A stretch of 64,000 bases of DNA from Amycolatopsis acidiphila (GTDB taxonomy: Bacteria; Actinomycetota; Actinomycetes; Mycobacteriales; Pseudonocardiaceae): the NCBI RefSeq assembly GCF_021391495.1, contig NZ_CP090063.1, forward strand, positions 1,240,001 to 1,304,000, given 5' to 3'. Positions 40,618-47,917 of this stretch are shown here, one piece after another. Made by a program: the position numbers and the translations under genes. Position 1 is the stretch's first letter. Each line of letters opens with the position of its first letter. The notes under the pieces were generated by a model, which did no database searches, had not been told where the DNA came from, and saw only the letters and a list, made by a program, of their open reading frames with translations.

Positions 40618-43600
40618 GTGACCGCTTCTGCTGAGCCCCTGTACGGGGCCGACGACCTCACGCACCTCGAGGGACTGGAAGCCGTCCGGAAGCGACCCGG
40701 GATGTACATCGGGTCCACCGACAGCCGCGGGATCAACCACCTCTTCACCGAGATCGTGGACAACTCCACCGACGAGGGTGTCGCTGGTCACGCCGGCCGC
40801 GTCGTGGTGACCCTGCACGCGGACGGCAGCGTCCAGGTCGACGACGACGGCCGCGGCATCCCCACCGACAAGCACGCCAAGTCCGGGCTCTCGGGCGTCG
40901 AGCTGGTGCTGACCAGGCTGCACGCGGGCGGCAAGTTCGGCGGCTCGGGCTACAAGACCTCCGGCGGCCTGCACGGTGTCGGCGCCTCCGCGGTCAACGC
41001 GCTGTCGCACCGCTTCGACGTGACGGTCAAACGGGACGGCAAGGTGCACGAAATGTCCTTCGCGCACGGCGTGCCGGGTGTGTTCGACGGCGCGGGCCCG
41101 AAGGCGAAGTTCACGCCGCAGCCCGGGTTGCGGGTCGTGGGCAAGATGAAGCGCGGCGAGAAGACCGGCACCTCCATCCGGTACTGGTACGACTCCCGCT
41201 ACTTCGAGACCGGTGCGAAGCTCGACGTCGAGGGCGTCCGCGACAAGCTGCGCAACACCGCGTTCCTCGTGCCCGGCGTGGAGTACGTGCTGCGCTCCGC
41301 GACCGAGGACGCGATCAGCGAAGAGAAGTTCGCCTACCCCAACGGCCTACGCGACATGGTGGACTTCCTGACCCCGGACGGCGACAAGCCGGTGTCCGGC
41401 ACGCTGATGATCACCGGCGAGGGCACCTACAAGGAGAACGCCGCCGACGAGAACGGCGTGATGAAGTCCAATGTGGAGCGACGGGCCGAGGTCGAGGTCG
41501 CGCTGCGCTGGAGCACCGGCTACGAGCGCACGGTGGAGTGCTTCACCAACACGATCCGCAACGTGCATGGCGGCACCCACCGCCGCGGCTTCGACCGCGG
41601 CGCGGTGAAAGCCTTGCAGGAGGCCATCTCCAAGACCCGCGGGCTGCTCAAGCCCAAGGAGGACATGCCGGGGGTCGACGACGTCCTCGAGGGCATGACC
41701 GCGGTCATCCACGTGCGCATCCCCGAGCCGCAGTTCACCTCGCAGACCAAGGACGAGCTGTCCACGGCGGGGATCACCCGGGTGCTCCAGGGGGTGGTGG
41801 AGAAGCAGCTCAAGGCCTGGACCGAGGACCGCAAGACCAAGTCCGAGGCCAAGATCGTGCTGCAGAAGGTGGTCGACGCCGCGCGCGTGCGGCTGACCCA
41901 GAAGCAGCAGAAGGACGCGGCCCGCCGCAAGACGGCGCTCGAAGGCGCGGCCATGCCGCCCAAGCTGGTCGACTGCCGCACCACGGGCGTCGCGCGCAGC
42001 GAGCTGTTCCTGGTGGAGGGCGACAGCGCGCTGGGCTGTTTCACGGCGGACACGAGGGTCGCGCTGGCTTCGGGGGAGAGTAAGTCCTTCGCCGAGCTGG
42101 CCGGCGACTGGGCACGAGGCGTCACGCATTTCGGTTATACGACGAACAAGGCGGGCAGGGTGGTCGTGGCACCGCTGGTCGAGCCGCGTCTCACGAAGCG
42201 CGATGCGCCACTGGTGCGGGTGACCTTGGACAACGATGAGTCCGTCCGCTGCACCCCAGACCACCTCTTCCGGCTTCGGGACGGCTCCTATCGGCGAGCC
42301 GACCAACTCACGGCCGGTGACTCCCTGATGCCGCTCTACCGGTCCGTGTCGTCCAAGGCGAAGGGCGACAAGCTCGACGGGTACGAGCGCGTCTGGATGA
42401 ACGATCGCGACGAGTGGGTCTACACCCACTACGTGGCGGACGCCCACAACCTCCGGCAGGGTCTGGACAGCGCTGACAACGGCAACGTCCGCCACCACGT
42501 CGACGTGAACAAACGCAACAACGATCCCCGCAACCTGCGGCGGATGACCTGGGACGACCGTGCCGCACTGCATGCCTCGATGATGGGGCAGCACGTTCAC
42601 GACGGTTACCGGGAGTGGCTCGGTCGTGGTGGCCTGGAGTTCAAGTCGGCCATGCTGTCAGCTCAGTGGGAGGACCCGGCGTTTCGCGAGGCTTGCCTGG
42701 CACGGCTGGCGAGGCTGAACGACGATGCCGACTTCCGTGCTCGGATCGAACAGGGCTTCCAGGACTGGTACGCCTCGCTCAGCGATGACGAACTGAGTGC
42801 GTATGCCGAGCGCATGCGGGAGCGACAGGCGGCGTACTGGGCGCGCTCGGAGAACCGCGCCGAGGCTGCCGAGCGCGTCCGGATCTTCTTCGCGCAGCCG
42901 GGGCGCCGGGCGGAGTGGAGCGAGCGGTCCAAGGAGCAGTGGCAGGACGAGGATCTGCGGGCGTGGCGGTCGAACAAGACGGCCGAACAGTTCTCCGATC
43001 CGAGCGAGCGGGAGCGTCAGCGCGCGGCGGTCATGGCCTGGCATCAGGAGCATCCGGAGTTCGGGCTGCGGCACTCGTTGCGGATGAAGCTGCGGTTGCG
43101 CGACCCGGAAAACGGGCACCTTGCGAAGGTTCAGGAGGGCCGCGCTCGTTATGTGTCGAGTGTGCCCCGCGCGGACCGGGTCGCTCAGCAGACCGAGGGG
43201 CGCCGCATCGCGGCGCTCAGGCGGCTGGCCGGCGTGCTGTCGGAGCCGGACTCCGAACTGGCCGAGGCATACGAAACCCAGCGCCTGCGCACGGCTCGAA
43301 CGGGGTTGCGCTTCGACCGCCTGCTGGCGCACTACGACGGTGACTACGCCCGGCTGCGTGAGGCAGCGAGCCTGGTCAACCACCAAGTGGTCGCAGTGGA
43401 GAAACTGACCGAGACCGCGGACGTGTACGACCTGACCGTCGAGGGCTACCACAACTTCGCGCTCGAAGCGGGCGTCTTCGTGCACAACAGCGCTCGCATG
43501 GCGCGGGTGTCGGAGTACCAGGCGCTGCTGCCGTTGCGCGGCAAGATCCTCAACGTGCAGAAGGCGTCGCTGGGCGACACGCTGAAGAACGCCGAGATCG

Positions 43601-44127
43601 CGTCGATCGTGCAGGTGCTCGGCGCGGGCACCGGGCGCACCTTCGACCTGTCGACGATGCGCTACGGCCGGGTCATCCTGATGGCGGACGCCGATGTCGA
43701 CGGCTCGCACATCCGCACGCTGCTGATCACGCTGTTCGCCCGGTACATGCGCCCGGTCATCGAGGACGGGCGGCTGTACGCGGCGATGCCGCCGCTGCAC
43801 AAGATCACCACCAAGGGCCGGAACCCGGAGACGCACTTCACCTTCAGCCAACGGGAGATGGAGGCGAAGGCCGCGGAGCTGGAGCAGGCGGGCAAGCAGA
43901 TCGTCACCCCGGTGCCGCGGTTCAAGGGCCTCGGCGAGATGGACGCGGACGAGCTGTGGGAGACCACGATGAACCCGGCCACCCGCTCGGTCCGCCGGAT
44001 CACCCTGGACGACGTGGAAGCCGCGGAGGCCGCGCTCGACCTGTTGATGGGCGAGAAGGTCGAACCCCGGCGCAACTGGCTGGTCGAGTCCGCCGCGCGG
44101 GTGGACCAGGCCGCGATCGACATCTGA
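40618..44127 (+). CDS. parE: Type IIA topoisomerase subunit B (topoisomerase IV/gyrase B), with intein
   Basis: 1169 residues as translated, 685 after removal of the intein. The GHKL ATPase has [31 protein letters not shown] and [19 protein letters not shown]. The TOPRIM domain is split: [11 protein letters not shown] before the intein, then [20 protein letters not shown] and [20 protein letters not shown]. The catalytic EGDSA and DxD are intact after splicing. With ParC it relaxes and decatenates DNA. The parE-parC pairing, distant from any dnaA/dnaN/recF, favours topoisomerase IV over the replication-origin gyrase, but family trees would be needed. GTG start behind GGGAG. Confidence 0.9.
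42037..43488 (+). other. Intein in ParE/GyrB with HNH homing endonuclease
   Basis: 484 residues (protein positions 474-957) inserted between LVEGDSALG and SARMARV in the TOPRIM active site. Block [16 protein letters not shown] (Cys1). Block [21 protein letters not shown] (T-x-x-H). Block [16 protein letters not shown]. Block G: AGVFVHN with penultimate His and terminal Asn, then Ser+1. An HNH-type core, [20 protein letters not shown], lies in the middle. A long charged helical stretch follows it. All splicing residues are present, so it should be active. Confidence 0.9.
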
Positions 44128-44143
44128 GGCCGCAGGAGAACTC

Positions 44144-47100
44144 ATGGCACGCCGCAAGACACCCACGACCAGGGTCGATCCCGCCGCCTTCGACCAGGCG
44201 GGCGCCCAGGTCTTCGAGAACCCGGTCAAGACCGAGATGGAGGACTCGTACCTCGAGTACGCGTACTCGGTCATCCACTCGCGCGCCCTGCCGGACGCGC
44301 GGGACGGCTTGAAGCCGGTGCACCGCCGGATCCTGTTCTCGATGAACGAGGCCGGCTACCGCCCGTCGCACGCGTACGTGAAGTCCTCCCGCGTCGTCGG
44401 CGACGTGATGGGCCGCTACCACCCCCACGGCGACACGGCGATCTACGACGCGATGGTCCGCCTGGCACAGGACTTCTCGATGAACGCGCCACTCGTGGAC
44501 GGGCACGGGAACTTCGGCAGCCCGGACGACGGCCCGGCGGCTTCGAGGTACTGCGTCGTCGGCGACACGCGGATCCGGCTCGCGGACGGCTCGAGCCCGC
44601 GCATCGCCGACGTGGTGGATCTGCCCGCCGACAGCGAGGCCGCCGCGGACTTCGAGGTCCTGGACAAGGACGGCAAGCCGGTCCGGGTGACGAAGGTGTT
44701 CAACTCCGGCGTCCACCCCACGATCCGGACGACCACCAAGTCGGGTTTCTCGCTTCGGGGCAGCGAAAACCACCTGGTCCTGTGTCTGGAGGCGCCGCTG
44801 GGAGTGCCGCTGTTCCAGTGGCGGCGCCTGGACGAGCTGAAGCCCGGCGCGGTCGTGGCCGTCGCACGTAACGCCTGGCTGCAGGTAGTGCCCACGGCTC
44901 GCGAGTACATGCTCGGCGTGCTCGCCGGTGCGTGGGTTTCGGAAGGCCGGGCGAGCGAGAACCGGGCGGGCTTCAACAACACGGACGAGCACTTCTTCGG
45001 CGAGGTCCTGCACGCCTACGACCAGGTCGTAGGCGGGCCGCGATATGTATCGGCGCGGCGCACCCGGCGGGACCGCAAGCAGGTGCACGAGCTGGACATC
45101 CAGGACTACGCCGGTGGCATGGCGGCGTTCCGGGAGAGCCCGCTGGCCGAGCTGATCGGTCACCAGGCCAGGGACAAGTTCGTGCCCGAGTTCGTCTGGC
45201 ACGGCGGCTGGGGCGTCAAGCGCGCGTTCCTGATGGCGCTGTTCGAGGGCGACGGCGGCCCGCGCCTCGCTGTGGACGGCTTCAACGTCCAATACACCAG
45301 CTACAGCGAGCGCCTGACCAGCGAGGTTCAGGAGCTGCTTGCCGAGTTCGGGGTCATCGCCCGGCATTGCCGGTACACGCGAACGAGTGGCGCAGTCGAG
45401 CACCGGCTCGTGATCTCCGGGCTTCGCAACGTACGGGCGTTCGTGGAGCGTGTCGGCTTCCTCGAGACGAAGCGGGCGAAGGTGACCGAGTTGTTGCGGC
45501 GCTCGGTCCTGAGTCCGCACCGGCTCAGCCAGGACAAGGTCCCGTTCGTCGCGGACTACGTGCGGGGCGCGCTCGACTTCGATCGCCGCGGCAGCGACCG
45601 GAAGTGGCTGACCCAGCACAATTTCGACCGCGTCGAGCGGTGGGAGACCGAGCGGCTGCGAATCATCGACCGGATCAAGGACACCGAGGTACTGGCCACG
45701 ATCCTGCCGGTGATGGATTCCGGCTACCGCTTCGAGGAGGTCACCGAGGTCTCGGCAGCCGAACCGGCGGAGGTCTATTCGGTCCGGGTCGAGTCCGACG
45801 ACCACTCCTTCCTCGCCGGCGGGTTCGTGAACCACAACACCGAAGCCCGGATGTCGCCCGAGGCGATGCTGCTCGTCGGGGAGCTGGGCGAGGAGACGGT
45901 CGACTTCCGGCCCAACTACGACGGGTCGCTGCAGGAGCCGTCGGTGCTGCCGGCGGCGTACCCGAACCTGCTGGTCAACGGTACGTCCGGGATCGCGGTC
46001 GGGATGGCGACGAACATGATCCCGCACAACATGGGCGAGGTCATCGGCGCCGCCCGCTGGCTGATCAACCATCCGAACGCCTCGCTGGACAAGCTGATGG
46101 AGTTCGTGCCCGGCCCCGACCTGCCGACCGGCGGCATGCTGCTGGGCCTGGACGAGGTGCGCAAGGCCTACGAGACCGGCCGCGGCGTGGTGCGGATGCG
46201 GGCGAAGGTCCAGATCGGCCCGCTGGAGGGCAGCCGCGGCCGGCAGGCCATCACGGTCACCGAGCTGCCGTACGGCGTCGGGCCGGAGAAGGTGATCGAG
46301 AAGATCACCGACGAGGTCAACAAGTCCAAGCGGCTCACCGGGATCGCGGACGTCAAGGACCTCACCGACCGCGAGAACGGGACCCGCCTCGTCATCGAGT
46401 GCAAGGTCGGGGTGAACCCGCAGCCGCTGCTGGCGGACCTGTACCGGCTCACGCCGCTGGAGCAGTCGTTCGGCATCAACAACCTGGTGCTCGTCGACGG
46501 CCAGCCGCAGACGCTGGGGCTCAAGCAGCTGCTCGACGTGTTCCTGGCCCACCGCTACGAGGTCGTCACCCGCCGGACCAGGTACCGCCGGCGCAAGCGC
46601 GAGGAGCGGCTGCACCTGGTCGAGGGCCTGCTGCTGGCGCTGCTGGACATCGACAAGGTGATCCGCCTGATCCGCAACAGCGACAACGCCGCCGAGGCCA
46701 AGGAAGGCCTGATGAAGCGGTTCAAGCTCTCGGAGATCCAGGCGACGTACATCCTGGACACCCCGCTGCGGCGGCTGACCAAGTACGACAAGCTCGAGCT
46801 GGAGGAGGAGCAGGAGCGGCTGCGCGAGGAGATCGCGGAGCTGACCAAGATCCTCAAGGACGATGGCGTGCTGAAGCGGGTCGTGTCCAACGAGCTGGCC
46901 AAGATCGCCAAGGACTTCCGCACCGAGCGGCGCACGGCGCTGATCGACGGTGACCTCAAGGAGGTGCTGGCGGCGTCGCAGCCGGCTGGTCCCCGCGAGG
47001 TCGCCGACGACCCGTGCCAGGTGATCCTGTCGGCCACCGGCCTGGTCGCGCGGACCGCGGCGGAGTCGGAGGAGGCGCCGGAAGGGCGGCGGCGCAACGG

Positions 47101-47917
47101 CCGCGTCAAGCACGACGCGGTGGCGGCGCTCGTGCATTCGACCGCACGCAGCCAGGTGCTGCTGATCAGCAGCCGTGGGCGCGCCTTCAAGACCGACGTG
47201 CTGCCGTTGCCGGTCCTGCCGGAGCAGGCGGGCACGGTGTCGCTGCGCGGCGGGATGGCCGCGCGGGAGCTGGTGCCGCTGGACAAGGGCGAGCGGGTCG
47301 TCGGCATCGCGCCGCTGGGCGAGCAGGCGGCGGACTCGCCGGGGCTCGCGCTCGGCACGCGCCAGGGCGTGGTGAAGGTGTGCGCGCCGGAGTGGCCGGT
47401 GCGGGCGGACGAGTTCGAGGTCATCAGCCTCAAGGACGGGGACGAACTGGTCGGTGCGACCTGGCTGACCAACAGGAACGAGACGCTGGCGTTCGTGGCG
47501 TCCGACGCGTCGCTGCTGAGGTTGTCGGTGTCGCTGGTGCGGCCGCAGGGGCTCAAGAGCGGCGGGATGGCGGGCATCAAGCTCACCGACGGGGCACACG
47601 TGGTGTTCTTCGGCGCGGTCCGCACGGACGACCCGGAACGCGGCGAGCCGATGGTGGTCACGGCCACCGGCACGACGGTCAAGATGACGCCGTTCGCGGA
47701 GTACCCCGCGAAGGGCCGGGCGACCGGCGGTGTCCGCGCACACCGGTTCCTCAAGGGCGAGGACGCGTTGTCGGTGGCGTGGATCGGGCCGCGCCCCGCC
47801 GGGGCGGCGTGCAACGGCGACCCGGTGGAGCTCCCCGAGCCGGTCGACCGCCGCGACGGCTCCGGGGCAGCGCACCCGGGCCCGGACTTCGTCGGGCACC
47901 TGATCGAACGTGGCTGA
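44144..47917 (+). CDS. parC: Type IIA topoisomerase subunit A (topoisomerase IV/gyrase A), with intein
   Basis: 1257 residues as translated, 828 after removal of the intein; 16 bp after parE with AGGAG. The breakage-reunion domain has [60 protein letters not shown], and GPAASRY with the catalytic Tyr136, after which the intein is inserted. The extein resumes [20 protein letters not shown]. Later: [20 protein letters not shown] and [20 protein letters not shown]. The C-terminal propeller (from about residue 940) shows no QRRGGKG GyrA box, supporting a ParC-type relaxing enzyme. Confidence 0.9.
44552..45838 (+). other. Intein in ParC/GyrA with LAGLIDADG-type endonuclease
   Basis: 429 residues (protein positions 137-565) inserted directly after the catalytic tyrosine (ASRY / TEARM). 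Block [21 protein letters not shown]. Block [14 protein letters not shown] (S-x-N-H in place of T-x-x-H). Endonuclease motifs: [17 protein letters not shown] (block C) and [19 protein letters not shown] (block E). Block [18 protein letters not shown]. Block G: FVNHN, then Thr+1. The insertion point equals that of mycobacterial GyrA inteins. Splicing residues look complete. Confidence 0.9.

Follow-up and report, generated by a model that had tools for sequence, protein, structure and literature searches.

The topoisomerase IV operon of Amycolatopsis acidiphila carries one intein in parE and another in parC. The operon lies in the window, by which we mean the whole 64,000-nucleotide stretch that was analysed (positions 1,240,001-1,304,000 of a genome assembled as one contig of 8.18 Mb). 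From the sequences we think it highly probable (about 0.88) that these are two separately mobile, unrelated class 1 homing inteins of gyrase type, stacked in the operon by sequential invasion. The operon would have been invaded twice, probably at different times, the ParC intein belonging to the lineage that occupies the tyrosine site of GyrA and ParC and the ParE intein to the lineage that occupies the EGDSA(G/L)G site of GyrB and ParE. We read the inserts as mobile elements because of their splicing motifs, their patchy presence among relatives, a series of decaying forms, purifying selection, differing divergence and spread between paralogues. An earlier note on this DNA had described two unrelated inteins in adjacent parE and parC genes, which the complete splicing motifs, the open frames and the same positions in relatives bear out. 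It had also called the pair matched, a description that does not fit the differing histories of the two inteins.

The genes lie in tandem on the forward strand. The parE precursor gene (topoisomerase IV subunit B; 40618-44127, 1169 residues, GTG start) is followed after 16 bases by the parC precursor gene (subunit A; 44144-47917, 1257 residues), and each frame is open from end to end. Gyrase has its own genes elsewhere in the same genome, a gyrB frame of 659 codons and a gyrA frame of 881, with no intein in either. This GyrA has the GyrA-boxes QKRGGKG and QGRGGKG, while the same pattern finds no GyrA-box in ParC. As the intein-bearing genes are a second A/B pair besides gyrase and their ParC has no GyrA-box, the pair is on these sequence features topoisomerase IV, in agreement with the earlier assignment. 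With one intein in each subunit two splicing events are needed, as had been claimed, and mature ParE and ParC would each form only once its precursor had spliced itself. It is reasonable to expect that the unspliced precursors would be inactive.

The ParE intein (42037-43488, forward strand) is 484 residues long, spans ParE residues 474-957 and sits between EGDSALG and SARMARVSE. It begins with Cys1, has a block B TPDH at 73-76, ends in His483-Asn484 and is followed by a +1 Ser. In an alignment to solved gyrases ParE residue 473, the last before the intein, falls opposite E. coli GyrB residue 430; we take the insertion point to correspond to the GyrB EGDSAGG motif, in the TOPRIM loop upstream of the DxD motif. 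Pfam Intein_splicing scored 65.2 bits (cut-off 35.8). The models TIGR01445 and TIGR01443 match both ParE and ParC, the C-terminal match of ParC lying exactly at the cut-off. Among 153 genomes of the family Pseudonocardiaceae in which both genes were read, the 39 that carry this intein all have its Cys1, block B His and terminal HN. The residue at which it is inserted is identical among carriers, and the +1 Ser is found in 153/153, carriers and empties alike.

Of the 39 ParE inteins 28 are near full length, and the other 11 are reduced (below 470 residues, 158-389) and have lost endonuclease parts. The columns missing from at least half of the reduced forms define a central HNH/helical region (approximately residues 131-435; 42427-43341, forward strand). 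HNH_3 is weak in the window's copy (E = 0.36) and was found in 8 of 16 homologues, with a best E of 0.0029, but H153, D156, N162, P164 and N166 of the motif are invariant in all 28 full-length copies. The earlier description of an HNH intein at the TOPRIM EGDSA motif thus holds for the site, while the HNH label is weaker than was claimed. A Hint fold is predicted for this intein; AlphaFold confidence is low in the HNH/helical region, where the model is too poor for the HNH part to be placed. When the ParE intein was searched by sequence against solved structures, the only matches were to Hint parts and to weak, unrelated chains. Cys220, in the HNH/helical region (42694-42696), is present in 28/28 full-length copies and gone from the 11 reduced ones.

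The ParC intein (44552-45838, forward strand) has 429 residues, spans ParC residues 137-565 and starts directly after the catalytic Tyr136. Its motifs are Cys1, a block B SENH at 71-74, His428-Asn429 and a +1 Thr. ParC residue 566, the first after the intein, aligns with E. coli GyrA 123 in the alignment to solved gyrases, and the intein follows the equivalent of GyrA Tyr122, which we take to be the catalytic tyrosine. Whole ParC gives a single continuous match to the NCBIfam model 'intein-containing DNA gyrase subunit A' (1038.7 bits, short of the model cut-off of 1850), and because this is one unbroken alignment we place the insertion at the same tyrosine site as the GyrA inteins. Pfam Intein_splicing scored 26.8 bits, under its cut-off of 35.8. 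All 34 tyrosine-site inteins of the family have Cys1, the His of block B and the HN at the end; again the insertion residue is identical among carriers, and the +1 Thr is found in 153/153, with or without the intein. Of these inteins 23 are near full length and 11 are reduced (below 420 residues, 188-381), with loss of endonuclease parts.

With a score of 57.8 bits (cut-off 22.5), the match of the ParC intein to LAGLIDADG_3 (PF14528) upholds the claim of a LAGLIDADG intein beside the catalytic tyrosine. PF14528, conservation and fold matches to TliVMA, PI-PfuI and PI-SceI delimit the endonuclease region (approximately residues 113-389; 44888-45718, forward strand). Two acids are presumed to form the active site, and the window's copy has both: E131, conserved in 19 of the 23 full-length copies, and D234, conserved in all 23. 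A Hint fold is predicted here too. By terminal residues, block B and this predicted fold both inteins are class 1, and the two are unrelated to each other.

To place the pair among its relatives we surveyed 249 genomes of the family, of which 157 gave a ParE match (E <= 1e-100), the host genome included. From these, 154 par loci and the window were taken, G021 and G059 being left out; L134, at a contig end, and L201, with a broken ParC frame, were also left out, giving the 153. In addition to the 39 ParE and 34 ParC tyrosine-site inteins, 18 genomes having both, the survey revealed a third intein site of the par operon, between VVGD and CMGKYH in ParC, which is filled in 39/153 with inteins of 129-436 residues (for example L117, L118 and L132). 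All eight combinations of the three sites occur. Without the ParE intein, 78 genomes have none, 20 only the second ParC site filled, 12 only the tyrosine site and four both ParC sites; with it, 13 have it alone, eight with the second ParC site, 11 with the tyrosine site and seven with all three. At least one intein is thus present in 75/153, and in 26/153 parE and parC are both interrupted. Of the 16 genomes of the window's genus, two have both inteins at full length, two have both reduced, three have only the ParC intein (in reduced form in one case) and nine have none.

These counts answer two points of the earlier note. It had suggested looking in related Pseudonocardiaceae for intein-free alleles, and they were found (78/153). 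It had also thought the pair unusual, a view not borne out by 18 double carriers in the family, by 26 genomes with inteins in both genes, or by 52 named loci chosen for a ParC intein: both genes could be read in 45 of these, and 15 had the ParE intein too, among them Micromonospora inaquosa (L088), which lies outside the family. The nearest named carrier of the ParC intein is A. sacchari, with 92% identity. A class-wide search of 345 genomes found the ParE intein in the host genome only and relatives of the ParC intein in 21, the host included; as G045 was the only other family member among the matches listed, this says little about the family. We also considered chance or a frame error as the source of the inserts, which the open frames and the same positions in 39 and 34 of the 153 genomes rule out, and a pair unique to this genome, ruled out by the 18 double carriers.

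The inteins come and go at their sites. On the extein tree of the 153 genomes presence changes at least 26 times for the ParE intein, 27 for the ParC tyrosine site and 21 for the second ParC site. Purifying selection acts on the endonuclease regions of full-length copies, with a ratio of nonsynonymous to synonymous divergence (dN/dS) of 0.07-0.20 in ten comparisons, one of which has saturated synonymous sites. That the endonuclease-type domains are kept by selection is as expected if these elements spread into empty alleles after horizontal transfer, with the domains presumably cleaving the target and driving homing.

The divergence of the two inteins from those of the genus-mate G026 differs. 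Synonymous divergence (dS) between the window and G026 is 0.32 for the ParE extein and 0.42 for the ParC extein. The ParC inteins are 92% identical in amino acids with a dS of 0.56-0.61, while the ParE inteins are 79% identical with a dS of 0.89-1.05, about three times that of their extein. The nearest relatives of the ParC intein rank in host order (92, 89 and 85%). In contrast, the ParE intein of the window is equally close to L124, from another genus (80% identity, par exteins differing by 16%), and to G026 (79%, exteins differing by 6%). As the ParC intein tracks the host while the ParE intein shows this greater synonymous divergence and is no closer to G026 than to L124, the sequences suggest that the ParE intein probably did not descend jointly with the ParC intein in this lineage. 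Since it follows the relatives within the genus, the ParC intein was probably there first, and the ParE intein would be a separate arrival or a replacement.

Several observations weigh against this picture. The ParE intein tree, built like the ParC intein tree from full-length copies only (28 and 23, respectively), leaves the window and G026 unresolved in a weakly supported group of five, three of them from another genus, and the separate arrival therefore rests on synonymous divergence. Codon bias in the exteins inflates the dS contrasts to some degree, with the ParC intein serving as an internal control. The acid at position 131 is absent from 4 of the 23 full-length ParC inteins, and some of these endonucleases may be dead. 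Finally, the two inteins are not wholly independent of each other, as their association, a model of dependent gain, joint reduction and their distances show.

The association itself is clear in the raw counts, 18 co-occurrences against 8.7 expected (Fisher p 9e-5, with no correction for the tree), and 18 was reached in 15 of 150 simulations of independent gain and loss. Independent pairs gave 5.3 differing in the same direction, 1.2 in the opposite direction and 11.5 with no difference (median p 0.22), and with the roles reversed 4.7, 2.6 and 11.7 (median p 0.69). Pagel-type tests gave p 0.019 for the ParE and ParC tyrosine sites, p 0.54 for the ParE and second ParC sites, and p 0.006 for the two ParC sites, where the rates are hard to interpret. 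The 18 double carriers comprise ten with both inteins full, five with both reduced, three with only the ParE intein reduced and none with only the ParC intein reduced (p 0.007 without tree correction); as this treats related genomes separately, it is a lead only. The distance matrices of the two inteins correlate beyond their exteins when all 18 carriers are used (p 0.002), though not clearly for the ten that are full-length in both (p 0.08).

Such coupling could arise if the inteins, about 1 kb apart in an empty allele, were gained and lost jointly by one event of gene conversion or transfer. The association and the correlated distances and reduction states would fit this. However, allowing simultaneous double gain and loss did not improve the fit, the corrected Akaike information criterion (AICc) rising from 307.9 to 311.0 on the independent model and from 304.8 to 308.6 on a dependent one. 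In addition, the tyrosine-site ParC intein is missing from 21 of the 39 genomes with the ParE intein, the ParE intein is missing from 16 of the 34 with the ParC one, and the ParC intein stands alone in three genomes of the window's genus. Two neighbouring inteins in haloarchaeal mcm enter singly occupied alleles and hardly enter empty ones (PMC10643990). Joint movement as one unit thus seems improbable.

A less extreme form of coupling is that an allele with one intein becomes a better target for the other, as in haloarchaeal mcm, where double-intein alleles are described as invading singly occupied alleles far better than empty ones (PMC10643990). The best of six gain and loss models made gain of the ParC intein depend on the ParE intein (AICc 298.6 against 307.9 for independence). 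The ParC intein was gained at a rate of 0.11 where the ParE intein is absent and 1.78 where it is present, about 16-fold (likelihood ratio 11.5, reached by 0 of 150 simulations), and the reverse dependence, of ParE intein gain on the ParC intein, also beat independence (AICc 303.1). On the other hand six models were compared, the pair tests were not significant, the tree was made from the exteins themselves, and lineages rich in gene exchange could mimic the effect. The other pairs of sites, which serve as controls, were mixed (p 0.54 for the ParE and second ParC sites, p 0.006 for the two ParC sites), and the apparent first arrival in the window's own genus is the ParC intein. We therefore hold facilitation to be possible but lean against it; by analogy with mcm, the pattern of coupling would fit stepwise invasion, without proving it.

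Sequential invasion by separate elements agrees with what is seen in gyrase. Inteins of the ParC type, 67-74% identical to the window's, occur in GyrA of Acidimicrobiia and other actinobacterial metagenome-assembled genomes (L098-L102, L108), although the host GyrA proteins are only 38-44% identical to ParC. On these sequences the ParC-type intein is one that has been exchanged between gyrase and topoisomerase IV genes. An approximately unbiased (AU) test did not reject a single clade of ParC-hosted inteins (p 0.25), which leaves the direction of the exchange undecided; the wide ParC-intein tree leaves out L108 and copies below 410 residues. The ParC intein is also 38-41% identical to inteins of seven genomes of genus g47 in the same order, presumably mycobacterial GyrA inteins. 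For the ParE intein, the one GyrB-hosted relative seen is a full-length intein at the same site in Bernardetia (Bacteroidota; WP_338815708.1; 31% identity, E 5e-56).

It is extremely unlikely that both inteins were instead inherited vertically from before the duplication that separated gyrase and topoisomerase IV. GyrA inteins do share their site with those of ParC, and GyrB inteins with those of ParE, and the AU result is compatible with such descent, but intein identities of 67-74% between hosts that are 38-44% identical, at least 26 and at least 27 changes of state, and the intein-free gyrA and gyrB of the genome itself all speak against it. No close source was seen among the phage and plasmid records searched. 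The ParE intein matched seven phage records, at no more than 34.5% identity, and one plasmid record, that of the Bernardetia GyrB; the ParC intein matched no plasmid record, and the best 8 of its 16 phage records reached no more than 23.6%.

The earlier note had raised the possibility that decatenation is gated twice if splicing responds to redox, metals or stress; both inteins would then splice conditionally, and topoisomerase IV would be released only when both respond. Each intein does have an invariant extra cysteine beside block B (Cys72 in 39/39 ParE inteins, Cys78 in 34/34 ParC inteins), and a mycobacterial DnaB intein is described as conditional through a disulfide between the catalytic cysteine and another (PMC6195587). 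That partner cysteine is called non-conserved there, and a conserved cysteine is thus no marker of such control (PMC6195587). A gate would also have to be dispensable, as 78/153 relatives, and 9 of the 16 in the genus, have none of the three inteins, and the endonuclease parts, needless for a mere gate, are under selection in the comparisons computed. We consider a double regulatory gate very unlikely. The sequences give the more specific idea that an oxidant or zinc stalls both subunits through Cys72 and Cys78, the host exploiting two parasites to gate its topoisomerase IV output, an equally slim chance.

The second ParC site is empty in the window (extein residue 87/88; 44402-44407, forward strand), where the +1 residue is Val. 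All 39 carriers have Cys at this position, while the empties have Val in 86, Thr in 15 and Cys in 13. As empties with Cys or Thr are close to carriers (median distances 0.05 and 0.04) and those with Val are far (0.13), Val may protect the site and Cys in empties may be a footprint.

A further intein in the host genome, outside the window, lies in an Rv2578c-family radical SAM protein (locus L276, G000:C1:4428496-4429197), which matched NF038136 at 828 bits (cut-off 700). A ParE match at E <= 1e-100 is missing from 92 of the 249 family genomes; those inspected mostly have a single weak match for the A subunit, which would fit genomes with gyrase that lack topoisomerase IV. In a few of them (such as G013, G038, G097 and G165) the match for the A subunit is far stronger, with E from about 1e-277 to 1e-289, and may be a GyrA with a related intein.

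The double intein is explained by known biology, gyrase-type inteins found here in the topoisomerase IV operon, and the survey of the family is of some value in itself; no title on ParE or ParC inteins was found in the literature searched, whose partial coverage makes this no proof of absence. A double intein need not imply a regulatory switch, which corrects the earlier reading. With three sites in adjacent genes for the two subunits of a single enzyme, this family's par operon offers a natural experiment on stacked parasites. It can be used to ask whether one intein favours or impedes another, by what route inteins move between the genes of gyrase and topoisomerase IV, and whether neighbours lose their endonucleases together.

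The closest parallels are the gyrase inteins. The M. xenopi GyrA intein (PDB 1am2/4oz6; NCBIfam NF038098) has a Hint domain homologous to that of the ParC intein (E 9e-27) and the same site after the catalytic Tyr, but the window's host is ParC rather than GyrA and its copy retains a LAGLIDADG endonuclease. The Bernardetia GyrB intein shares with the ParE intein the EGDSAGG/S site, Cys1, HN/S and 31% identity over the full 484 residues, in a different host protein (GyrB rather than ParE) and another phylum. Cyanobacterial GyrB inteins also occupy EGDSAGG/S. The M. smegmatis DnaB intein resembles those of the window in having a DNA-handling host protein and cysteines that could form a disulfide; it is class 3 and its response was measured, whereas the window's inteins are class 1 and known from sequence (PMC6195587). 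In haloarchaeal mcm two close inteins are each patchy and occur together in 38/129, there is a site whose +1 residue decides occupancy, and co-homing is not supported, as here; mcm is a single gene in which homing was measured, whereas the window has two adjacent genes of one enzyme in which homing is presumed (PMC10643990).

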